NCBI RefSeq assembly: GCF_001746835.1
Contig: NZ_CP016094.1
Span: forward strand, 2,232,001-2,296,000
Source: Lacunisphaera limnophila
GTDB lineage: Bacteria; Verrucomicrobiota; Verrucomicrobiia; Opitutales; Opitutaceae
DNA: 64,000 nt
Direction: 5' to 3'
The position numbers and the translations under genes were made by a program. Positions 1 through 12,536 of this stretch are shown here, one piece after another. The notes under the pieces were generated by a model, which did not search any database, was not told the origin of the DNA, and saw only the letters and a list, made by a program, of their open reading frames with translations. Positions within the stretch are counted from its first letter, which is position 1. Every line of letters starts with the position of its first letter.

Positions 1-2
1 CC

Positions 3-2615
3 GACCGGGTTGCGGTCGCTCCGGCATTGCTGGAACGGCATGGGGCGGCGCTGCGCACATACCTGGCCCAGTTGCCGGGGGCGGATCGGACCGCCGTGGA
101 AGCGGTGACACAGGCCGTGCTGAGGGAGATCCAGGAACAGAAGGATCTGGAGGAGGATCCGCTGGTGTGGCTTTTCGCCCGGGGCCGGCAGCAGCTGACC
201 GGGACGGGTCATCGCGGTGACGGCATGCTGGCGCAGACAGACGAGGCGGCGGAAGCGGATGATCCGGCGGAGGACGGGCGGGTGGCGGTGCACCGGGTGT
301 TTGCGCGGCTGACGAGCAAGCAGCAGGAGGCGTTGCGGTTGAAATTCCAATTTGGGTTCAACGCCGAGGAGACGGCCCGCATCACGGGACTGTCTCCGGC
401 CGGGGCGAGTGGTTTGTTGCATCATGCGATCGAGCGGGTGGTGGCGGCGACGGCGGCGGGGCGGTCCAAGGCGTCGTCGGTGATCCGCGATCCCCGGATC
501 ACCGCTTATGCGTTGGAGGAGATGGGGCCCGACGAGAAGCAGGCCTTTGTGGCGAGCGTGGCCGACGGCAAGGCGCTGCTGACCGGCACCGAGGCGATCC
601 GGCAGGCCGGGCGGCAGCTGAGGCAGATTTTGGAATCCGGCGAGCCGCTGCCGAAGCGGCGCCGCCGGCGCAAAGGCGGAGCGGGCTTTCGCTTGGGCCT
701 CACCGCGCTCGTTGTCGTGGGGTTGGCCGCGCTCGGGTGGTATTTTATCGCGCGCTCGCGGGCTCCCGGACGGGGAGAAGCGACCGAGGGTACCGGGCCG
801 GGGTCGGCCGGGCTCCAAGCGTCGGCAGGGAAGGAGCGGGCAGCCGGTGGCGGGCCGGTCGGAGCCGGCGGTCAAGGAGTGGTGGCGCGGACCGCGCCGG
901 GTCGAAACCTGCGACCGGGGGAGGCGGAGTGGGAAAGGAAAGCCTTTGGTCACGGCAACGGGCAGGCGGCGGGTGCAACGGGCGGAGCCAGTGCGGCGTT
1001 GCCCGGAGGCGGCATGGGCGGGGCGGAGGCGGGCGGGGGGGGAGGTCTCCGGAGTCCCGGTGCCCCGACGGGGGCACTCGGCACCGACGAGGCCGCCTTG
1101 GCGCAGGGAGAATATAGCGATGATGAAACGGCACCGACGAACGGCCGCGCGGAGGCCACGTTAAAGGCGGACCCGGCGGCACTGGCCGCAGAAGCAATGG
1201 ACGAGCCGGCGGATGCCGGGCCGGTCCAGGCGGCGAAGGTAGCGCGGTCCGCGCCGCCTCGAACCGCTGCGCGGCAACCGGGGGAGACGCCGGCGGCACC
1301 GGCCGAACCGGGAGAGGGGAAGGAGGAGGCGATGCGATCCCAGGCGAAGGCCGCGCCTGGGCCCGGGATCGGGGGTATGCGAAAGCGGCTCGCGGACAAA
1401 GAATGGCCGAAGACGGAAGAGATCCACCTCGCCGAGATGGTGCGGCAGGGACCGCCGGAGCCGCCGCGGCCGGAGGTGGCCGCGGCGGAGGAACCGTTGA
1501 CGGCCCAGGTGGAAGTGGCGCCCTCGCCTTGGACGCCCGGGCGATCGATCGTGCGGGTCTCAGTCCGGGCGAAGCCGGTCACGCCGCCGGCGCGCACGCC
1601 GGTAAACCTGGTGCTGGCGATCGATGTGTCGGAATCGATGCGCGGGCCGAACCGGCTGCCGCTGCTGCAGGAAGGCATGCGGCTGCTGGCGGAGCGGCTG
1701 CGTCCGGATGATCGCGTCGCGGTCGTGACTTATGCGGGGCAAGCGATCGAGGTGTTGCCGAGCCAGCCGTTGGGCGCGCAGGCGCGCGAACTGCGCGGCA
1801 GCTTGAACGGGCTGACGGCGGCGGGGCGCACGAACGGTTATGCCGGGCTCGAACTCGCCTACGACGTGGCCCGGCGGGCGCAAGCGGTGGGGGGGAAGAG
1901 TGTCGTGCTGCTTTGCACGGACGGAAATTTCAACCTGGGGGAAACGGACGAGCGCGTGCTGGCGGCGCGGGCGGCGCGGGAGGCCGCGGGTGGGGTCACG
2001 CTGAGTGTGTTTGGCTTCGGGCGCAGCGATCGGAACGACCTGCGGCTGGAACTGTTGGCGCGCGAGGGCGGCGGGCGGAGTTGTTACGTGAACACGCGGG
2101 AGGAGGCGGAGCGCCTGCTCGCGGGGCAGGTGGACGGACTCCTGGAGCCGACGGCGACGGAGGTCGGCCTGCAAATCGACTTCAAATCGGAGATGGTGGG
2201 GCAGGCGAGGTCGCTCACGGAGGGCAATGCCGTCGAAGTGGCCGAGTTGCTGCCCGGCAGGCAGCTGGTCGCGCTGTATGAGGTCGATTTCAAGGGGGGG
2301 GCCGTTCCGGGGGCGGAGGCCTGGGCGGGGCTGCAGGTGGAGTATCGGGAGGCTGGCACCGGCCGGACACGACGGTTGGTCCGGGCGCTGGCAGAGGAGG
2401 TGCGGGAGTGGAGCCAGGCCGATGCCGGTTTCAAGCATGCCGTGGCGATGGCGGAGCTGGGACGCATCCTGCAGGATGGGGCGGCGGGGGCGGGGCCGGG
2501 GTTGGACCGCCTGGAATCCTGGGTGCGGGTCGAGTTGCCGGATGACGCCGGGGGTTATCGGCAGGAGTTGCTGGAGTTGGTGGCGGCGGCGCGAGAAGCG
2601 GCGGCGAGGAGGTAG
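3..2615 (+). CDS. Fused sigma-like / anti-sigma-like / VWA membrane protein (5' partial)
   Basis: The frame is already open at the window edge, so the true start lies upstream; the first start-like codon is TTG at 27. Counting from there, residues ~1-145 resemble the ECF sigma factor at 2785-3324, best in the region-4 helix-turn-helix (LRLKFQFGF, ARITGLS, ~103-125). Residues ~153-205 resemble the anti-sigma-like start of the 3376-5610 protein (DPRITAYALEEM versus DPRLTAYALDEM). A basic run (~212-218) and one membrane helix (~221-243) follow, then a long Gly/Ala/Pro-rich linker and a VWA domain with metal-site motifs DVSES (~533) and TDGN (~631). The region-2 part looks eroded, so activity as a sigma factor is doubtful. 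The DNA-binding part should be cytoplasmic and the VWA part periplasmic. Domain assignment rests on alignment by eye to the neighbouring genes. Confidence 0.85.
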   Translation, partial: DRVAVAPALLERHGAALRTYLAQLPGADRTAVEAVTQAVLREIQEQKDLEEDPLVWLFARGRQQLTGTGHRGDGMLAQTDEAAEADDPAEDGRVAVHRVFARLTSKQQEALRLKFQFGFNAEETARITGLSPAGASGLLHHAIERVVAATAAGRSKASSVIRDPRITAYALEEMGPDEKQAFVASVADGKALLTGTEAIRQAGRQLRQILESGEPLPKRRRRRKGGAGFRLGLTALVVVGLAALGWYFIARSRAPGRGEATEGTGPGSAGLQASAGKERAAGGGPVGAGGQGVVARTAPGRNLRPGEAEWERKAFGHGNGQAAGATGGASAALPGGGMGGAEAGGGGGLRSPGAPTGALGTDEAALAQGEYSDDETAPTNGRAEATLKADPAALAAEAMDEPADAGPVQAAKVARSAPPRTAARQPGETPAAPAEPGEGKEEAMRSQAKAAPGPGIGGMRKRLADKEWPKTEEIHLAEMVRQGPPEPPRPEVAAAEEPLTAQVEVAPSPWTPGRSIVRVSVRAKPVTPPARTPVNLVLAIDVSESMRGPNRLPLLQEGMRLLAERLRPDDRVAVVTYAGQAIEVLPSQPLGAQARELRGSLNGLTAAGRTNGYAGLELAYDVARRAQAVGGKSVVLLCTDGNFNLGETDERVLAARAAREAAGGVTLSVFGFGRSDRNDLRLELLAREGGGRSCYVNTREEAERLLAGQVDGLLEPTATEVGLQIDFKSEMVGQARSLTEGNAVEVAELLPGRQLVALYEVDFKGGAVPGAEAWAGLQVEYREAGTGRTRRLVRALAEEVREWSQADAGFKHAVAMAELGRILQDGAAGAGPGLDRLESWVRVELPDDAGGYRQELLELVAAAREAAARR

Positions 2616-2784: not shown

Positions 2785-3324
2785 GTGAACAACGAACCCC
2801 AACAGTCCGATGAAAGTCTTGATGCCAGCTCCCTCGTGCAGACGGCCGTGTCCCAACACCGGGCACCGCTGCTGCGCTACGCTACGCGCCTGCTCCGCGG
2901 CGACGCCGACCGGGCGCAGGATGTGGTGCAGGACACGTTTGTGCGTCTCATGGCGCAGCCGCCGGAACAGGTGGACGGGCATGTGGCGGAGTGGTTGTTC
3001 ACGGTTTGCCGCAACCGGGTCACGGATGTCCTCCGCAAGGAGGGTCGCATGAGCCTCTTTGCCGAAGGGCAGGTTGATCGCCTGATTGCGGCGGAGCCCC
3101 GGCCGGGCGCCGGCCTCGAGCGCGCCGAACAACACGCGGCGGTGCTAAAACTCATCGAGCAACTGCCCCACAACCAACAGGAAGTCGTCCGGCTGAAATT
3201 CCAGAACGGCTTCAGTTACCAGGAAATCAGCCGCATCACGTCGCTCTCGGTGACGAACGTCGGCTTCATCCTGCACACCGCCATCAAGCGCCTGCGCCAG
3301 GAGATGATCGCGCAGCCGGAATAA
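2785..3324 (+). CDS. ECF-type RNA polymerase sigma factor
   Basis: This 179-residue protein should direct RNA polymerase to a dedicated promoter set. It has a region-2-like segment (~20-75: DRAQDVVQDTFVRL, then EWLFTVCRNRVTDVLRK) and a region-4 helix-turn-helix (~120-165: QQEVVRLKFQNGFSYQEI, SRITSLS). I chose GTG at 2785 because AGGAG at 2772-2776 is spaced 8 bases from it; a GTG at 2767 would add six residues but has no ribosome binding site. The next gene, 51 bases downstream, begins with an anti-sigma-like segment and a membrane helix, so the two are probably a sigma/anti-sigma pair. The fused gene just upstream is a divergent one-chain version of the same pair. Confidence 0.9.
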   Translation: MNNEPQQSDESLDASSLVQTAVSQHRAPLLRYATRLLRGDADRAQDVVQDTFVRLMAQPPEQVDGHVAEWLFTVCRNRVTDVLRKEGRMSLFAEGQVDRLIAAEPRPGAGLERAEQHAAVLKLIEQLPHNQQEVVRLKFQNGFSYQEISRITSLSVTNVGFILHTAIKRLRQEMIAQPE

Positions 3325-3375: not shown

Positions 3376-5610
3376 ATGAATACAGATCCAATTTTGCCGG
3401 ATGATCCGCGGCTCACCGCCTACGCCCTCGACGAGATGGCGGCGGATGAGCGGGTTGAATTTGAAAAACTGCTCAGTGCCGATCCGGCGGCCCGCCAGGC
3501 CGTGGAGGAGATCCGGGCGGCGGGCACGATGTTCGCGGCCGCGTTGGAGTCTGAGGCGGCGGGCCAGCCCGGTGCGGAAGCAAAGGCGGCCATCGTCGCC
3601 GGGGGAGATCCGCGGATGCTCGATGGCGGCGGGACGACGGCGGAACGGGTCAAGCGGGCGAAAGACCGTCTCAACCGGCCGATCCGGTTCCCGCAGTTTT
3701 ATTATGCGGTGAGCGGGCTCGCGGCGGCCTGCTTTGCGGTATTTTTTGTGATCTGGCAGCAGAAACAGCCGGAGCCCGTGCGGGCGAAGCAATACGTTGC
3801 GGTGGATTTGCCGGCGTTCAAGGCGACGGAGTTGGATGCCGCGGCGGCTGCGCCGGTGGCCGAGGCGCCGCCGGTTGTGACGATGGGTCGGGAGGTTCCG
3901 GCCTTCAAGGATGAGGCGCAGGTGGGTGGGGCGGTGGCCGACCTCTCCCTTGTGGCCCAGAGCGGGGTGCCGGTCGCCTTGGCCGAGACGCGGGAAGGGT
4001 CGCAGGCATTGGCCGCGACCACGGCAGGCTATGCCGCTCCGGCGCCTGCTCCGGTCGATAGTTACAACCAGTCCGCCGCGTTGTCGGGGTCCCGGTTTGT
4101 CGCCCGCCAACAGGAGATGGAGTCGGCGCGGCAGCCGGCCCTGGCGATGAAGCGTGCTATGGCGGTGGCACCGGCGCCGGCGTTCAACACCGAGGCATAC
4201 GGTCACCGGCAGGACAATGGGTATCAGCGGGTGGGGGATCATCCCTTGTCGACCTTCGCGGTGGACGTGGACACGGCGGCGTACGCCAATGTGCGCCGGT
4301 TCCTGGTCGGTGGGCAGCGTCCGCCGGCGGATGCGGTGCGGATCGAGGAGCTGATCAATTATTTCCCCTACGGTTATGCCCAGCCGACGGGCCGGGTGCC
4401 GTTCGCGGCGAACCTGGAAGTGGCGGCGGCGCCGTGGGCTCCGGCGCACCGGTTGGTGCGGATCGGGCTCAAGGGCCGTGAAGTCAGCGACGCCACGCGA
4501 CCGGCGGCCAACCTCGTGTTCCTGCTGGATGTGTCCGGCTCAATGCAGCAACCGAACAAGCTGCCGCTGGTGAAGCAGTCGCTGCGGCTGCTGGTGGGCA
4601 AGCTGCGGGCGGACGACCGCGTGGCCATCGCCGTTTATGCGGGTTCCTCGGGGTTGGCCCTACCCTCCACGCCGGTGTCGCGCCCGGCCGAGATCCTGGA
4701 GGCGATCGACCGATTGGAGGCGGGAGGCTCGACCAACGGCGCGCTCGGGATCCAGCTGGCCTACGACATCGCGAAGGCGAACTTCATCGCCGGCGGGGTG
4801 AACCGCGTGATCCTGGCGACGGACGGGGATTTCAATGTCGGGACGACGAGCGAAGGCGACCTCGTGCGGCTGGTGGAGGAGAAGGCGAAGAGCGGCGTGT
4901 TTCTCAGCGTGCTCGGCTTCGGCATGGGCAACCTGAAGGACGGCACGCTGGAGCAGATCGCGGACAAGGGGAACGGGAACTATGCGTACATCGACTCGCT
5001 GGCCGAGGCGAAGAAGGCGCTGGTCGAGCAGGCCGGTGGCACGCTGGTGACAATCGCGCAGGACGTGAAGATCCAGGTGGAGTTCAACCCGGCGCAGGTG
5101 GCGGCCTACCGGCTGATCGGTTATGAGAACCGGCTGCTGGCCAAGGAGGATTTCAACAACGACGCCGTGGATGCGGGCGAGATCGGCGCCGGGCACACGG
5201 TGACGGCCTTGTACGAGGTCGTGCCGGCGGGCGCGGAGCTGCCGGGCGTGGCGCCGGCCGTGGATGACCTCAAATATCAGCAGACGGAGAGCGGAGCACG
5301 GAAGGCGGGGGAGAGCGGCGAGTTGCTGACCGTGAAGTTGCGCTACAAGGAGCCGGCGGGGGCGGTGAGCAGCAAGGTGGAGTTCGTGCTCCGGGACACG
5401 GGGGCGCGCTTCGAGGATGCCAGTCAGGATTTCAAGTTCGCGGCGGCGGTGGCGGCCTTCGGGATGGTGCTGCGGGATTCACCGCACAAGGGGTCGCTGA
5501 CGCTGGCGGAAGTCGCGGCCTGGGGGCGGGCCGGCACGGGCAGTGACGCCGGCGGGTATCGCAGCGAGTTCCTCGGGCTGGTGGAGAGGGCGCAGGCGGT
5601 GGTGCAGTGA
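3376..5610 (+). CDS. Membrane VWA protein with anti-sigma-like N-terminus (YfbK-like)
   Basis: 744 residues. The first ~50 (DPRLTAYALDEMAADERVEF) look like the N-terminal segment of bacterial anti-sigma proteins but lack zinc-binding His/Cys residues. One membrane helix lies at ~108-132, then an Ala/Pro-rich linker, an N-terminal VWA-associated domain (~288-330, HPLSTFAVDVDTAAYANVRR), a VWA domain with DVSGSMQ (~385), GGSTNG and ATDGDFN (~481), and a C-terminal domain ending GGYRSEFLGLVERA. This matches the YfbK-type VWA architecture with an added anti-sigma-like head. Encoded 51 bases after the sigma factor, it probably senses something in the periplasm through the metal-dependent VWA fold and controls that sigma factor. 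That role is an inference; the ligand is unknown. Confidence 0.88.
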   Translation: MNTDPILPDDPRLTAYALDEMAADERVEFEKLLSADPAARQAVEEIRAAGTMFAAALESEAAGQPGAEAKAAIVAGGDPRMLDGGGTTAERVKRAKDRLNRPIRFPQFYYAVSGLAAACFAVFFVIWQQKQPEPVRAKQYVAVDLPAFKATELDAAAAAPVAEAPPVVTMGREVPAFKDEAQVGGAVADLSLVAQSGVPVALAETREGSQALAATTAGYAAPAPAPVDSYNQSAALSGSRFVARQQEMESARQPALAMKRAMAVAPAPAFNTEAYGHRQDNGYQRVGDHPLSTFAVDVDTAAYANVRRFLVGGQRPPADAVRIEELINYFPYGYAQPTGRVPFAANLEVAAAPWAPAHRLVRIGLKGREVSDATRPAANLVFLLDVSGSMQQPNKLPLVKQSLRLLVGKLRADDRVAIAVYAGSSGLALPSTPVSRPAEILEAIDRLEAGGSTNGALGIQLAYDIAKANFIAGGVNRVILATDGDFNVGTTSEGDLVRLVEEKAKSGVFLSVLGFGMGNLKDGTLEQIADKGNGNYAYIDSLAEAKKALVEQAGGTLVTIAQDVKIQVEFNPAQVAAYRLIGYENRLLAKEDFNNDAVDAGEIGAGHTVTALYEVVPAGAELPGVAPAVDDLKYQQTESGARKAGESGELLTVKLRYKEPAGAVSSKVEFVLRDTGARFEDASQDFKFAAAVAAFGMVLRDSPHKGSLTLAEVAAWGRAGTGSDAGGYRSEFLGLVERAQAVVQ

Positions 5611-5723: not shown

Positions 5724-8700
5724 TCAGGCGCGGCGTTTCCGCCAGACGGTCAGGCCGATGAAGCCGAGACCCAAGGCCAGCAGCGCGTAGGTGGAGGGCT
5801 CGGGCACGGGCTGGAAGGTGAGCTGAAGGAGATTGCCGTTCTGCTGCAAAACGAGGGTGTGGATGGGCAGGTCGGTGAAGAAGAGCGACGCATCGATGAT
5901 GAACTTGCTGGGATCGAATCCGACGATGCTGGAGGAAGTCGCATCGAAGAGAGTCCACGTATAGGAGCGGTTGCCGGACAGCCCGGTCAGGATACCGGCG
6001 GTGCCGTTCGCCTGCAGGGAGACGAGCTTGAGGGTGAAGCGGTTGTCCTCGTTGACGTTGGTGGTGAGCGGATCGTCGGCGGTGGTGCCGGCCGTGATGT
6101 GGAGGGTGGAGGGATTGGAGATAGTGACCAGATCGTAGTCCTGGGCGAGCGGGTCGGCGGTGTGAACATTCCACTCGAGCGTGCCGCCCGCGGCCAAGGT
6201 GAGGTCGGAGAAGTTGAGACGGCCGATGGGGTTGCCGGGGAGCCCGGGGGAAAGGGTGGTGCTGGTGCCGATGGTGGCGGTGTTGAAGTAGCCGCTGCCG
6301 GCCAGTTTGCCACTGGTGATAACGAGCGGGTTGCCGACGTAACCGCCGTCACTCACGGCGAGCGTGCCGCCATTGACCCAGATGGCGGGAGTGGAGTCCT
6401 CAATGTAGAAATCATCATTGATCACCACGGTGCCGTTGTTCACCTGGAGGCTCACTTCCATTTCGCCCACGGGCGTCGTGACATTCACGCCGTTGTGCAC
6501 GAACAGGCCGCCGTCAAGCAGATGGAGGGTGCCGGCGCCTTCCTTCACCAGACGGAGGCTGTCGGCGGGGGCATCGGAGCGGAACTCGCCATTGAACGAG
6601 CCGTTGTTGACTTGGTTGATCGTGAGGACGGTGTCCGCCTGGGTTGCCAGGAGCGCGGCGTAGTCACTGCTCTCATACTCATAATCTTCGCCGTTGCTGT
6701 ACAGGCCACCGAGCACGGGGGCCGCCGTTTCGAAGATGATCTCGAGGTCGTTGCTGTAGCCGAAGCCAATGGGGCCGGTGCCCGCAGCCGTGTTGTTGGC
6801 GAGCGTCAGGATTGTGTAATCACTGAGATAGATGCCACCGGAGAAACCGGTGTTATTGCCCGCCAGGGTGAGGGCGAGGGCGCCCTCGGTGTAGATTTCG
6901 CCCGTGCCGGTGAGGTTGCCGGTGAAGGTGAGGGCGGTCTCGTAACCAGCAATGTTCACATCGGCATTAAGCTGGAGGGCATTCGGGATGATGAGATTGC
7001 TGTAACCAGTGATTTGCGGACGGACATCATCGTCGCCGGCGGGCAGGGTGAGCTGGTGCGGCTGGACAATCAGCGCGCCGGTGCCGAGGGCGGTGGTCGG
7101 GTCGGTCCCCGGCGTGCCGTTGGACTGGCCGATGACCAATTCGCCGGCGTAGAGGGTGGTGGTGCCGCCGTACGTGTTGTTGCCCTTGAGCACGACGCGG
7201 GAGTATTCCTCTTTCGTGATATCCCCCATGGTGCCGAGGCTGGTCGGGTCGCCGATGTGGACGGAGTTGCCTGTTCCGGTGAGCGTGGTGTTGACCGTCA
7301 ATTCGCCGCCCTTGTAGGCGCCGAAGCGGTAGATGCTGCCTTGGGGCGTGATCGGGCCATCGAGGTGGGCCCGGGTGTGCGTGCCCAGATAGATGCCCGG
7401 AGAGGCATCGGTGAAGCCGGAGAGGTTGAGCGGAGAAGAGATCGTCACGTGCTCACTGGTGGCATCAAAGCCGATCATGCCGCGATCGGTGGTCGTCGCG
7501 AAGCGGTTGATGAAGTCTTGGGCGGGATTCGCGGATTCAAAGAGGCCGATGTAACCGCCATCGCCGAGGGTGAGGGCGCCGGTACCGGGGAGGGCATCGG
7601 CCGTGAACAGGGCGGCCGAGTGAGTGGCGGAGACGCCGCCGGTGAACGTGTTGCCCGCGCTGCTGAAACGGACGGACAGGGGGAGTTGTGCCGGCGAATC
7701 GAGGACGACGTTGCGTACGACCGGTCCGGCCGCATCGGTCAACGCGGACTGGACTTCGAGGAAGCCGCCGCCGCCGCCGAAGCGGTAGGTGTTGCCGAAG
7801 GGAGTGATCGTGGCGGCGGCATCAAGAACGGCGGCGGTGGCCGAGCCAATCCGCACGGTGCCATTGAGGCCGGCGAGGTTGATCGGGGTGCTGAACGTGG
7901 TCGCGAAGGAGGCGTTGGGATCGGAGTCGAAGCCGATGGACCCGGTCGAGGTCGGGTCGAGCTTGCCGAAGAAGGCCGCGACTTCGGTGTTGCTCGTGAT
8001 GCCGGCGTAGCCGAGCGAGCCGACCTTGATGGCGCCGGTGGCGGGGAGGGTGGTGCCATACATCGGGGAGTCGAAAATCAGGACGCCCTTGGTGACGTCG
8101 GTGCCCCCAGTCCAAGCGGTCGGGCCGTCGATGATGACGGCGCCGTCGGAATCGATGGTGAGTTTGCGGGCCCCGCCGCTTTCCCCGATGGCGCCGCTCA
8201 GGAATAGCGGCTCGCCGACGGAACGGATCGTCACATCCGTGGCCAGCGTGATCTCGGAATTGCCCTCGCCGTGGTACCCGAGACGCAGCTCCTCCTTGTT
8301 CTCGGTGGTGAGGGTGCCGTTGATGACGATGTCGTTATCGATCTGGATTTGGTCCGGGTCGTAGGAGTAGTAGTACGGGTCTGTGCCCACGAGGGTGCCG
8401 CCGTTCAGCGTCAGGGGGCCTTCGCCAAGGCCCCCGGCATAGGCCGCGTATCCGGTCACGACCAAGCGTCCTTGGTTGAGGGTCAGCCCGCCGGTCCAAT
8501 TGGAATAGCTGGTATCGAGCACCAGCGTGCCGGCCCCGGTCTTGGTGAGGGCATAGGCGCCGTTGGAGTAGTTCTCGCCGTTGAATCTCCAGTCGCTGAT
8601 CGTGCCTTCCACCACGAACGTGCCGCCTTGGATATTCCAGGTCTGGCTCGCGTGCAACTGGACCGCGTCCATCAGGTACGAGGGCACGTTGCCGGTCGGG

Positions 8701-9038
8701 GCGTAGACGATGCCGCCGGAGCCGAGATGGGTCGTGTCGTAGCTGCCGTGCAGTTCGAGGGAGCGCGTGATGCCCTCGATCTTCAGTTGATTCGCATAGA
8801 GTTCGTAGTAGCCGATGAACGCGCCCGAGCTCGAGGGACCGAAGACCAGCCGCGAATTGACGACATCCTCGACGGGGGGCACTGCGCCGTTGGCCCAGTT
8901 GTTCGGGGAGAGGAAATCGTAATAGTAATCATCATTCCGACCAATCCAAGTGTAGGTGATAAGTTGCGCGTGGAGGCTCCCCATCAGGGATAGGAGCAGC
9001 ACCACCGCAAAGGCGGAGGGTTGGAAGCGTCGGCTCAT
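5724..9038 (-). CDS. Secreted beta-helix (PATR-repeat) protein with PEP-CTERM sorting tail
   Basis: 1104 residues: a signal peptide (MSRRFQPSAFAVVLLLSLMG, cut near HAQ), then many strands of the autotransporter-associated beta-strand type (KTGAGTLVLD, KEGAGTLHLLDGG, GGLTLNQGRLVV). The extreme C-terminus is a PEP-CTERM signal: PVPEPSTY, a hydrophobic helix (ALLALGLGFIGLTVW) and the basic end RKRRA. There is no beta-barrel translocator domain, so this is not a classical type V autotransporter; PEP-CTERM proteins are exported and then processed or anchored by an exosortase. Probably an extracellular or surface matrix protein. The gene at 9174-12536 is a paralog in the same orientation. No partner enzyme is nearby. 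Confidence 0.9.
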   Translation of the reverse strand: MSRRFQPSAFAVVLLLSLMGSLHAQLITYTWIGRNDDYYYDFLSPNNWANGAVPPVEDVVNSRLVFGPSSSGAFIGYYELYANQLKIEGITRSLELHGSYDTTHLGSGGIVYAPTGNVPSYLMDAVQLHASQTWNIQGGTFVVEGTISDWRFNGENYSNGAYALTKTGAGTLVLDTSYSNWTGGLTLNQGRLVVTGYAAYAGGLGEGPLTLNGGTLVGTDPYYYSYDPDQIQIDNDIVINGTLTTENKEELRLGYHGEGNSEITLATDVTIRSVGEPLFLSGAIGESGGARKLTIDSDGAVIIDGPTAWTGGTDVTKGVLIFDSPMYGTTLPATGAIKVGSLGYAGITSNTEVAAFFGKLDPTSTGSIGFDSDPNASFATTFSTPINLAGLNGTVRIGSATAAVLDAAATITPFGNTYRFGGGGGFLEVQSALTDAAGPVVRNVVLDSPAQLPLSVRFSSAGNTFTGGVSATHSAALFTADALPGTGALTLGDGGYIGLFESANPAQDFINRFATTTDRGMIGFDATSEHVTISSPLNLSGFTDASPGIYLGTHTRAHLDGPITPQGSIYRFGAYKGGELTVNTTLTGTGNSVHIGDPTSLGTMGDITKEEYSRVVLKGNNTYGGTTTLYAGELVIGQSNGTPGTDPTTALGTGALIVQPHQLTLPAGDDDVRPQITGYSNLIIPNALQLNADVNIAGYETALTFTGNLTGTGEIYTEGALALTLAGNNTGFSGGIYLSDYTILTLANNTAAGTGPIGFGYSNDLEIIFETAAPVLGGLYSNGEDYEYESSDYAALLATQADTVLTINQVNNGSFNGEFRSDAPADSLRLVKEGAGTLHLLDGGLFVHNGVNVTTPVGEMEVSLQVNNGTVVINDDFYIEDSTPAIWVNGGTLAVSDGGYVGNPLVITSGKLAGSGYFNTATIGTSTTLSPGLPGNPIGRLNFSDLTLAAGGTLEWNVHTADPLAQDYDLVTISNPSTLHITAGTTADDPLTTNVNEDNRFTLKLVSLQANGTAGILTGLSGNRSYTWTLFDATSSSIVGFDPSKFIIDASLFFTDLPIHTLVLQQNGNLLQLTFQPVPEPSTYALLALGLGFIGLTVWRKRRA

Positions 9039-9173: not shown

Positions 9174-12100
9174 TCAGGTGCGGCGGTGAGACCGGATCGA
9201 CCTACGGCGATAACCCAATCCGACCAAGGACAAACCACACAGCATCAAGAGATAAGTGGAGGGCTCGGGGACGGGGGTGAAGCCGAGCATGATCTGGTTG
9301 CTTTGCCGGAAGACGGAGAAGGTGCCGGCATCGTTGCCGGTGAAGCCGTTGGCGGTGAAGAGGGAGGTATCCAGGGTGAAGGCGCTCGGGTCGAAGACGT
9401 CGGCGTTACCTGGGATGCTGAGGGAGTCGAAGCTGAAGAGCGTCCAGGCGTAGAGGCCGTGGTTGGGATCGATGCCGGTGAGCGCACCGCCGTTCACGCC
9501 AGCGAGGTTGAGCGAGATGATCTTGAGCGTGAACTTGGTGGACGGGGTTGCGTTGGTGGCATTGACGACCAGGGTGGTCGGGGTGCTGACATGGATCAGG
9601 TCATGGCCGCCGCTGGTGGCGGTGGGATCCTGGATCTGCCACTCATAGGCGCCGCCACTGTTGAGTTCCAGGTGCTCGAAATTGAGCAGGCCGACCTGGC
9701 TGGCGTTGGCCAGACCGGGGGACAGGATGGCGCCGGTGCCGATGGAGATGTTTGAGGAGAAAGCGCCGAAGCCGGCGAGCCGGCCTGAGACGACATCGAT
9801 CGGATTATATACCATGCTGTTGCCCTCGAAGGCGAGGGTGCCGCCGTTGATCTTCAGCGATACCGTGCTGGTCTCAAAGCCGACATTGTCCAGAACGAGA
9901 GTGCCTTCCTTGGCTTCGAGGACGTTGAAATTGGCGCCCTGGCCGTAGGAGTAGACGGTCGTGTCCTGGAGCCGGAGGGTACCCGTGCCTTCCTTCACGA
10001 AGACGCCGTTGACCCCGGGGGCACCGCTGTCGGCGCGGAGGTCGCCCGCGTAGGTGGAGTCAAAGTTCTGGATGATGCGCAGACGCGGGCTGTTGCTGCT
10101 GGTCAGCTCGATCTCGGCGTCGTTGGATTCGCTTGCGATGCCGTAGACGATGGGCGCGTCCGTACTGAATTTCACTGTGCCCGCTCCGCCGCCGGAGTTG
10201 TCGAAGTTGAGCCGGCCCGTGCCCAGGGCGGAGTTGCTGTCGGCCATGAGGGTGACGGCGTGGCTCAGGCGGGTGCCGCCGCTGTAGGTATTGTTGCCGG
10301 TGAGACGGAGGACGAAGTATTGGTCGCTTTCCTCGCCGACATCGAGCCCCCCGGGGCCGGTAATGGCACCGGTGAGGGCGAAGCTATGATCGCCGCCCAG
10401 CTCCGTTTCCGGGGCGTTGAGGACGATGGCATTGCTGATGATGAGATTCGGGGCGACGGCGCTGACGAAGGGGGCGGGGGTCTCGTTCCCATCGATTTCC
10501 TCCAGGGAATAAGTGACGGGTGCGATTGTCAGAGCGCCCTCGCCGAGGGCGTGCGTATGGTCGATGCCGATGGTGCCGTCGCCCGCGGCCTGGCCGACGA
10601 TCAGTTGCCCGCCGTAGAAGGTGGTGCCGCCGGCGAGGCCGCCGGCGTTGTTGCCCGAGACGAGCACAGTGGAAAATTCGCCGCGGGTGCGGTCCCCGAA
10701 GGCGCCGAGGGAGTCGGGGTGGCCGATGATCAACGCGTTGCCGGTGAGCGTGCCGGCCACCTCGAGGGCGCCGCCCTTGTAGGCGGCGAAGCGGTGCTTG
10801 CCATCGGCGTTGGCGGCAATCGTGCCGGTGAAGCGGACGCCCGGGCCGGAGATGTCGCCATTGAGGTCGTAGATCGCCGAGGCGGTGCCGAGGTAGCCAC
10901 CGCCGGTGAGACTGCCGAGGTTCACGCCCGTAAGACTGATGGCGCGGATGCTTTCGGCGCCCGTCGCGCCGTCGAAGCCGATGATGCCGGGTGTGGCGGA
11001 GCCGAAGCGGGCGAGATGGGTGTTGATGGCGGTGGCATCGGTGATGACATCCGGATCCTCGCTGCCGAGGTAGGCACCGGAATTGACCGTGAGGATGGCG
11101 GAGCCGGGCAGGGCGTCGTCGGCGAAGATCGCGCCAGAGTTGCCGACCGTGATGCCGGTGAAGGCGTTGCCGGTATTTGTGAAACGGACGGTGAGAGGCA
11201 GCAGGGCCGGGGAATCCAGGGTCACGGTGCTGCCGGAACTGGCGAGCGCCGAGTCCACCTGCAGCCAGCCGCCGCCGCCGCCGAAGAGGTAGTTGTTGTT
11301 TTTGGGCGTGATCGTGATGTTGCTCCCCAGGATGGCGGCAGTGGCCGAACCGATCCGGAGACCGGTGCCCAGACCGCTGACATCGATGGTTGAATTGTCG
11401 AAGGTATCGACGCTTGCCTGGACATCGGAATCAAAGCCGATGGTGCCGGTGGAGGAGGGGGTGATCAGGCTGACAAAGGCGGCGCTGCTGGCGACAGCAT
11501 CAACGCCGACGCCGACGTAGCCATCGGGGCCAACCGTGACCGAGCCCGGGGAGCCGGGGGCATTGCCCATGCCGCCGAAGATGAGGACGCCCTTGGTCAC
11601 CTCGGTGCCGCCGGTCCAGTTGCTGCCGCCGAAGAGGACGAGGCCGTTGGTGGAGTTGACGGTGAGCTTGTGGGCGCCGCTGATCGCTCCTTCGACATAG
11701 GTGTTTTCGCCCGCGGTGCGGAAGGTGGTGTCGGCGTTGAGCGTGATGTCGCCGGTGAGCACGAGCTCGGCCTTGTTCTTCGCGGCGAAGACGCCGTTGA
11801 GGGTGAAGTCATTCGCGATGGTGACGACATCGTCGCTGTCGCTGTTGTAGGCCCAGTCCAGCACCTCAAAGGTGGGGCGGGCGGCATTGTCGGGTCCGAC
11901 GGTCACCGTGCCGCTGCCCAAGGAGCCTGAAACGTAAGTATTCAAGCCCTCGCGATGCGGCCGCAGCACGATGGTGCCTTGGTTGAACTGCACGTTGCCC
12001 GACCAGGTGGCGTAGGTATTGTCGGGGGTGGGATCCAGGCGGCCGGCGCCGGTCTTGGTCAGGTTGCCGGTGCCGCCGAAGTAAGTGTTTTCCCGGAACT

Positions 12101-12536
12101 CGACGCTGACATCGGGTCCGATGTTCCAGGTCTGGTCCGCGTAGAGGTAGACATTTAGCCAGCCATCGAAGGCCAGATGGTCGCCCGACGACCCCGTGTA
12201 GGTCAGGCCGCCGCCGCCGATCTTGAAAGTGGATTCGCCGCCAGTGAAGTGATAATGGCCCGTGAAGGTGAGGCCGTAGGCCTGGCCGGAGGCATAGACC
12301 CACTGGCGGCTGCCCAGCGGGAAGATCAGCGATTCATTGGTGTTGGGATCACTATCAAGCAGGGAATTCAGCGAAGGGGCGACGGCCCCGACCCAGTTGC
12401 CCGGGGTGCTGAGGCTGCCGGGATTGAACACGTCGAATGTGGTGGAGCTCCACGTGAAAGTCTGGGTGACGGGAGGGGCCGGAAGTGAGATGACCAACGA
12501 CACGAAGCTAATGATTCCCAGAAGGCGCGCTTTCAT
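9174..12536 (-). CDS. Secreted beta-helix (PATR-repeat) protein with PEP-CTERM sorting tail, paralog
   Basis: 1120 residues. A signal peptide (MKARLLGIISFVSLVISLP) is followed by ~1000 residues of beta-strand repeats (KTGAGRLDPTPDNTYATW, KEGTGTLRLQDTTV, GGTRLSHAVTLMADS). The C-terminus reads PVPEPSTYLLMLCGLSLVGL, then basic YRRRSIRSHRRT: a PEP-CTERM signal with an unusually long basic end. It shares segment order with the 5724-9038 protein (for example VTKGVLIF, GTIGFDS/GSIGFDS, RFAAYKGGAL/RFGAYKGGEL and the RIGSATAA/ITP blocks), so the two arose by tandem duplication and diverged. Function inferred only as a surface or extracellular structural protein. Confidence 0.9.
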   Translation of the reverse strand: MKARLLGIISFVSLVISLPAPPVTQTFTWSSTTFDVFNPGSLSTPGNWVGAVAPSLNSLLDSDPNTNESLIFPLGSRQWVYASGQAYGLTFTGHYHFTGGESTFKIGGGGLTYTGSSGDHLAFDGWLNVYLYADQTWNIGPDVSVEFRENTYFGGTGNLTKTGAGRLDPTPDNTYATWSGNVQFNQGTIVLRPHREGLNTYVSGSLGSGTVTVGPDNAARPTFEVLDWAYNSDSDDVVTIANDFTLNGVFAAKNKAELVLTGDITLNADTTFRTAGENTYVEGAISGAHKLTVNSTNGLVLFGGSNWTGGTEVTKGVLIFGGMGNAPGSPGSVTVGPDGYVGVGVDAVASSAAFVSLITPSSTGTIGFDSDVQASVDTFDNSTIDVSGLGTGLRIGSATAAILGSNITITPKNNNYLFGGGGGWLQVDSALASSGSTVTLDSPALLPLTVRFTNTGNAFTGITVGNSGAIFADDALPGSAILTVNSGAYLGSEDPDVITDATAINTHLARFGSATPGIIGFDGATGAESIRAISLTGVNLGSLTGGGYLGTASAIYDLNGDISGPGVRFTGTIAANADGKHRFAAYKGGALEVAGTLTGNALIIGHPDSLGAFGDRTRGEFSTVLVSGNNAGGLAGGTTFYGGQLIVGQAAGDGTIGIDHTHALGEGALTIAPVTYSLEEIDGNETPAPFVSAVAPNLIISNAIVLNAPETELGGDHSFALTGAITGPGGLDVGEESDQYFVLRLTGNNTYSGGTRLSHAVTLMADSNSALGTGRLNFDNSGGGAGTVKFSTDAPIVYGIASESNDAEIELTSSNSPRLRIIQNFDSTYAGDLRADSGAPGVNGVFVKEGTGTLRLQDTTVYSYGQGANFNVLEAKEGTLVLDNVGFETSTVSLKINGGTLAFEGNSMVYNPIDVVSGRLAGFGAFSSNISIGTGAILSPGLANASQVGLLNFEHLELNSGGAYEWQIQDPTATSGGHDLIHVSTPTTLVVNATNATPSTKFTLKIISLNLAGVNGGALTGIDPNHGLYAWTLFSFDSLSIPGNADVFDPSAFTLDTSLFTANGFTGNDAGTFSVFRQSNQIMLGFTPVPEPSTYLLMLCGLSLVGLGYRRRSIRSHRRT

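Follow-up and report, generated by a model that had tools for sequence, protein, structure and literature searches.

The stretch of DNA analyzed here (the window) comprises 64,000 nucleotides of the Lacunisphaera limnophila chromosome (contig NZ_CP016094.1, positions 2,232,001 to 2,296,000) and begins with a gene whose 879-amino-acid product joins a sigma-like part, an anti-sigma-like segment, a membrane helix and a von Willebrand factor A (VWA) domain in one chain. The adjacent genes encode the same parts as two proteins, an intact extracytoplasmic function (ECF) sigma factor and an anti-sigma/VWA protein (the split pair). In our preferred reading, which we hold at a probability of roughly 45%, the fused protein is a membrane-anchored pseudo-sigma: a self-capped paralog of the split pair that would tune this pair by partner exchange. 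Genomes and extracted loci are referred to below by G and L numbers.

Domain layout of the fused protein

The open frame at window positions 3 to 2615 (+ strand) runs on upstream of the window, whose edge truncates the 5' end of the gene. Within the chromosome stretch around the window, a likely GTG start was located in frame at window position -24 (C1:2231976), directly preceded by AAGGGGGG; the gene thus occupies window positions 1 to 2615, with its stop codon at 2613 to 2615. The one-chain protein described in the initial annotation is real, as judged from this frame, from Pfam matches to sigma4 and VWA and from alignment to the split pair.

The sigma2-like part (residues 14 to 82; positions 15 to 221) was delimited by the split-sigma alignment, residue counts and AlphaFold2 helices at residues 14 to 31, 38 to 54 and 62 to 75. 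It was recognizable solely through alignment with the split sigma, and Pfam reported no Sigma70_r2 for the window's fused chain at E ≤ 10. The following sigma4 domain (residues 101 to 160, helical in the AlphaFold2 model; positions 276 to 455) matched Sigma70_r4_2 over residues 103 to 153 (E = 2.1e-8), so that of the ECF-sigma-like N terminus first annotated, profile searches recovered region 4 with significance and gave no match to region 2. Three helices form the anti-sigma-like segment (residues 172 to 222, AlphaFold2 helices within 173 to 221; positions 489 to 641), which was identified by alignment to the N terminus of the split anti-sigma protein. This segment matched no Pfam family at cut-off, and no curated anti-sigma model of Pfam or NCBIfam matched the fused chain; its homology goes via the split protein, which itself scored under the cut-off of the NCBIfam antisigma family (7.3e-8).

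A single hydrophobic helix (residues 236 to 261 by hydropathy and AlphaFold2; positions 681 to 758) is preceded by 8 lysines or arginines in 20 residues and followed by 3 in 20. Since basic residues were more numerous before than after this helix in all five genus members, the sigma side should be cytosolic. The helix leads into a variable, Gly/Pro/Ala-rich and presumably periplasmic spacer (residues 263 to 455; positions 762 to 1340), with a mean identity of 24% among four fused orthologs (residues 257 to 455) and a ratio of nonsynonymous to synonymous substitution rates (dN/dS) of ~0.5. The VWA domain (residues 544 to 706; positions 1605 to 2093; Pfam VWA_2, 7.5e-14, and VWA, 1.2e-11) carries the metal ion-dependent adhesion site (MIDAS), which in VWA domains consists of DxSxS, T and D residues. 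Here these are DVSES at residues 550 to 554, T619 and D649, and they were intact in all 15 aligned fused chains. At the C terminus, residues 782 to 873 (positions 2319 to 2594) matched the second half of YfbK_C (3.6e-7; profile positions 91 to 182 of 184).

Loss of the region 2.2 motif in a sigma-like part under selection

The region 2.2 motif D..Q[DE].F was found in 16 of 16 split sigmas, a subset that formed the split-sigma alignment, and in none of 15 fused chains (D kept in 0, Q in 1 and F in 0 chains; the partial chain of G293 and that of G299, at a contig end, were left out). In region 2.4, D87 was kept in 1 and R90 in 9 of the 15 fused chains; W76, L77 and F78 were kept in 12, 12 and 15. 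The sigma4 residues Q137, E139 and L143 were present throughout (15/15), and R177, where the recognition helix ends, was kept in none; the mean charge of this helix was lower in the fused chains of the five genus members. Among 14 fused chains scanned with Pfam (G019 and G299 left out), sigma4 exceeded the cut-off in nine, including the window's, and Sigma70_r2 in none, with two weak matches at E = 0.019 and 0.04. PhyR_sigma-like matches, weak and below cut-off (E = 0.01 to 0.04), appeared in 4 of 10 chains of a second genus and in none of the four fused chains of the first scan.

Three close pairs of fused genes gave dN/dS values of 0.06, 0.04 and 0.10 for sigma4; 0.08, 0.42 and 0.18 for sigma2; 0.10, 0.16 and 0.14 for the anti-sigma part; 0.07, 0.05 and 0.21 for VWA; and 0.50, 0.58 and 0.49 for the spacer. 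By these ratios, purifying selection acts on the sigma-like part, which should therefore do something, even though the polymerase-binding motif is gone. Sigma regions 2.1 and 2.2 contact the clamp helices of polymerase beta', according to the accessible part of PMC7406223; the function of region 2.2 rests on this source because a literature search on sigma70 Q406/D403 gave nothing. Polymerase binding itself would thus probably have been lost. The sigma part most like a sigma factor, that of G294 (43% identical to the split sigma of the window), retains a near-normal region 2.4 but lacks the region 2.2 motif, a pattern that would fit if polymerase docking was among the first functions to go. 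The initial annotation had offered a membrane-tethered transcription factor or a decoy as roles; the motif loss in 15 of 15 chains disfavors the former, and a decoy would fit better.

Homology to the adjacent split pair

The split sigma gene lies at 2785 to 3324 (+; open reading frame open from 2767; Pfam region 2, 2e-11, and region 4, 2.5e-11), and its annotated start at 2785 proved to be the conserved one. Its product reads VRLKFQNGF where LRLKFQNGF had been quoted. The second gene, at 3376 to 5610 (+), encodes a 744-amino-acid anti-sigma/membrane/VWA protein with Pfam matches to YfbK_C (2.6e-72), vWF_A (5.5e-36) and VWA and an anti-sigma-like start. The earlier description of these neighbors as the same parts in two proteins held: the chain aligns collinearly with the pair through the sigma2-like part, sigma4, anti-sigma-like helices 1 to 3, transmembrane helix, spacer, VWA and C-terminal part, and in the window's genome anti-sigma helix 1 is identical at 10 of 12 positions. 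Compared with the pair, the fused copy is one chain, has lost the region 2.2 motif, matches vWF_A and YfbK_C partially and has diverged faster. In four genomes with both forms, divergence was faster among fused chains than among their split counterparts in almost every comparison, mostly 2- to 8-fold (one comparison, 20.8-fold; anti-sigma part, 1.0- to 2.9-fold).

In all 14 genomes where this could be checked, split sigma and anti-sigma genes lie downstream of the fused gene and share its strand. They likewise accompany the partial copy of G293; the contigs of G026 and G299 end too early for this check. The fused gene is directly followed by a sigma gene and the beginning of an anti-sigma gene in G298, G291, G294, G301, G297 and G292, and the pair lies ~2.3 kb downstream in G295 and ~10 kb downstream in G296. 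Nine genomes of the window's genus without the fused gene show an OppA-like gene (-) followed by the sigma and anti-sigma/VWA genes (+), and in G000, G006 and G011 the fused gene sits between OppA and sigma. In G019, G278 and G268, fused gene and split pair are ~9.4 kb apart, separated by a cluster (L067:5992-14401, L086:5200-13621 and L087:5142-13559, respectively) that is absent at that site in G000, G006 and G011 and whose genes we take to be RDD-, zinc-ribbon-, DUF4129-, DUF4350- and SpoIIM-like.

We do not claim a common ECF promoter for the fused gene and the split pair, as their conserved upstream blocks differ. Upstream of the split sigma, the window contains a conserved block TGTGTCCA..CTAATAAACC (2733 to 2754, +); in 12 genus regions extracted of 13 sought (G004 missing), CTAA[TG]AAA occurred in 12 and TGTGTCCA in 10. 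The fused genes of all five genus members are preceded by another block, AGTTT...CGATA (e.g., in L004 just upstream of 9976). Nor do we claim a same-frame bias of split pairs: in 7 of 13 genus pairs, both genes shared a frame and a single stop separated them [P(≥7 at 1/3) = 0.10].

Some split anti-sigma proteins showed peculiarities of their own. Those at L089:4388-5854 (G199, another genus of the family) and L019:238-1782 (G012, same genus) are without the VWA core, the vWF_A part passing in frame into the YfbK_C part. At L006:9387-11609, the spacer of the anti-sigma/VWA protein (residues ~219 to 265) weakly resembled a TonB-dependent receptor plug (PF07715, E = 8.4e-4, below cut-off). Elsewhere in the window, positions 5724 to 9038 and 9174 to 12536 (-) encode adjoining repeat-rich proteins of 1104 and 1120 amino acids, which end in what we take to be a PEP-CTERM-like signal.

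Distribution and origin

The fused architecture was found in one open frame in 16 genomes belonging to two genera of one family, both assigned to the Opitutaceae in NCBI. Of 21 genomes searched in the window's genus, 5 carried the gene and 16 showed none. In the second genus (that of G278), it was present in one frame in 11 of 13; the copy of G293, located where a contig ends, is partial, and none was found in G300. Among 103 genomes sampled from the order, it was seen in the window's own genome alone, and among 194 from the phylum, in G000, G268 and G278; as at most 9 (order), 4 (phylum) and 24 (second genus) candidates were scored per genome, fused genes may have been missed in these searches. 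A scan of named genomes returned four loci, namely, one split pair labeled Akkermansia and three fused homologs, two of them labeled Lacunisphaera sp. and Oleiharenicola sp.; the three fused loci lie on the same contigs as G026, G006 and G011 and were counted once. The contig titled as an Akkermansia muciniphila metagenome-assembled genome carries a distant split sigma/anti-sigma-VWA pair (L008:2722-5487); its VWA region was long-branched in a first tree, and the label may be wrong. A sequencing error or missed stop was rejected, given one open frame in 16 genomes that include assemblies of 1 and 2 contigs (G000 and G019); in the relatives, the junction likewise showed no stop.

When 51 VWA regions were placed in one tree, a single branch (support, 100/100) parted 35 split from 16 fused sequences; since the tree was midpoint rooted, the direction of change is inferred. 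This tree included the partial G293 and left out G299, at a contig end, as well as L008, L057, L059 and L061 to L065 as distant or long-branched. Because of the collinear homology, the 100/100 branch and the shared place of the fused gene upstream of the split pair, the duplication and fusion suggested in the initial annotation are supported, as an event not private to one genome but shared by two genera. An origin within the window's genus had fitted the first tree, which left out proteins of <600 amino acids and duplicate loci; the gene was later found in the second genus, and the later tree replaced it. The fusion would then be older than the two genera, and many genomes of the window's genus would have lost it; alternatively, the gene may have been transferred between them.

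Predicted fold and proposed mechanism

AlphaFold2 modeled residues 1 to 262 with a mean predicted local distance difference test score (pLDDT) of 84 and a predicted template modeling score (pTM) of 0.76, using an alignment of 21 rows. In this predicted closed intramolecular fold, the sigma-like part is packed with the chain's own anti-sigma segment. Among the 50 Foldseek matches listed, target template modeling scores of 0.55 to 0.60 were obtained for 4cxf, 5uxx, 5wuq, 5wur and 2lfw, i.e., anti-sigma-bound ECF sigmas or the sigma-like domain of PhyR (2lfw, with NepR), compared with 0.28 to 0.37 for polymerase-bound ECFs. A viral fold search gave no match at E = 0.001. In class I anti-sigmas, helix 1 engages sigma4, and helix 4 the side of sigma2 that contacts polymerase, as stated in the accessible part of PMC7406223. 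Sigma4 is retained in the fused protein, and so is helix 1 in most of the fused chains. Helix 4 was not modeled in the window's fused copy, which is weak evidence because the same stretch is missing from some of the genus's split proteins.

At rest, the anti-sigma segment would cap the sigma-like part on the cytosolic side of the membrane. A periplasmic event at the VWA/MIDAS domain, which is likely the sensor, would loosen the closed state, and the sigma-like part would then compete for the neighboring anti-sigma, so that the working sigma is freed. Partner exchange with the pair would be expected by analogy with PhyR, NepR and EcfG, because the intact pair always adjoins where this could be checked and because helix 1 is so nearly identical; this exchange, VWA sensing and the direction of the effect are what we infer. 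The data suggest that the sigma-like half is a membrane-bound mimic regulating the intact pair beside it. More tentative is the view of the whole as a transmembrane partner switch, in which a single-pass receptor with a disabled sigma, capped by its own anti-sigma segment, would control a separate pair through its periplasmic VWA domain with no kinase.

The constant presence of the split pair downstream, where this could be checked, speaks for the pseudo-sigma reading, and the pair frequently exists without the fused gene. The motif loss, the purifying selection, the retained sigma4 residues, the AlphaFold2 model with its Foldseek matches, the weak PhyR_sigma-like matches, the near identity of helix 1, the intact MIDAS and the PhyR precedent speak for this reading as well. 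Several points weigh against it. Of the 21 rows in the AlphaFold2 alignment, 16 were split sigmas, which favor a sigma fold; among the 50 Foldseek matches listed, none reached E = 0.001, and the anti-sigma complexes 1or7, 6in7 and 8z6g scored 0.30 to 0.35 and 4nqw 0.44. A split control, in which sigma and anti-sigma were joined through the intervening stop, showed no preference for the closed form (pLDDT, 77; pTM, 0.33); its last sigma2 helix was longer, and one more helix preceded the membrane. The more disordered linker and different alignment of this control confound the contrast, which is at most suggestive. The sigma4 match exceeded the Pfam cut-off in just 9 of the 14 chains, with no sigma4 match whatsoever in G268; sigma2 dN/dS reached 0.42 in one pair; and the anti-sigma helix 1 region is shortened and diverged in G278, G268 and G296. 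Moreover, the altered sigma2 face is also the target of helix 4, so the mimic's contact with the anti-sigma may be partly lost too.

The closed fold would also suit a second membrane-bound anti-sigma, whose segment sequesters the neighboring sigma and whose own sigma-like part plugs it from within and decides when the segment is free. Purifying selection on the anti-sigma segment (dN/dS, 0.10 to 0.16) and the near identity of helix 1 to the neighbor's in the window's genome agree with this idea; the degraded helix 1 region in the three genomes just named does not, nor does the missing helix 4, though some split genus proteins are without it too, and we consider it unlikely. The order of parts, the same as in published fusions (PMC8999054, as far as accessible), and the conserved sigma4 bring to mind a membrane-held sigma freed by regulated proteolysis, as in the IutY or ECF52 model: VWA would sense, proteases would cut, and the sigma would join polymerase. 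The lost region 2.2 motif, the near-complete loss of D87 and a Sigma70_r2 score below cut-off in 14 of 14 chains, with two weak matches only, make such release very doubtful.

Nor do we find much to recommend a regulator held at the membrane that binds DNA through sigma4 alone, e.g., by competing at -35 elements, a view in which even less confidence can be placed. The helix-turn-helix fold of sigma4 is conserved as it would demand, but R177 is absent from all 15 chains, the recognition helix is less charged in the five genus members and AlphaFold2 closes sigma4 against the anti-sigma segment. The least probable explanation is that the sigma-like part survives as a relic in decay, with function residing in the VWA domain only. 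Faster divergence of fused chains than of split homologs in the same four genomes and the 16 of 21 genus genomes that showed no fused gene would be in line with decay; sigma4 dN/dS (0.04 to 0.10) is, however, as low as that of VWA (0.05 to 0.21) and far under that of the spacer, and the sigma-like part is present in all 15 complete chains aligned.

Relation to known systems

One-chain fusions of sigma, anti-sigma and membrane parts are in print, as had been noted at the outset: the accessible parts of PMC8999054 and PMC5826349 describe IutY (ECF243), ECF48, ECF52 (SCO4117), ECF53 and some ECF36 proteins. Like the protein found here, these combine sigma, anti-sigma, membrane helix and extracytoplasmic part, and SCO4117 shares the proline-rich spacer and a sensor-like domain. 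They act, or are expected to act, as sigma factors according to these sources, whereas the present protein is without the region 2.2 motif; it further differs from them, as far as the sources are accessible, in that its extracytoplasmic part is a VWA domain and an unfused pair adjoins. The suggestion that a VWA-bearing fusion is new has stood up so far, as among the matches listed in a search of open-access titles we found no such fusion, nor one with VWA and an altered sigma2 beside a working relative.

The pseudo-sigma reading also recalls PhyR, a sigma-mimicking anti-anti-sigma of Alphaproteobacteria that exchanges partners with NepR and EcfG (PMC8103513, accessible part). Both have a sigma-like fold with a degenerate polymerase-binding region beside a sigma/anti-sigma pair, in the present case by prediction and alignment, and PhyR structures were among the Foldseek matches listed (2lfw, 9by5, 9cb6, 4qic, 4g97 and 5uxw). 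However, the Pfam PhyR models matched fused chains below cut-off only, and PhyR, as described in the part of the source available, carries a receiver domain, in place of which the fused protein has an anti-sigma segment, a membrane helix and VWA. If our reading is true, a single membrane receptor would unite sigma mimicry with sigma/anti-sigma fusion, both of them ideas already known. The family would then offer a natural series of disabled sigmas beside working relatives, in which residues that serve polymerase and residues that serve the anti-sigma become testable.

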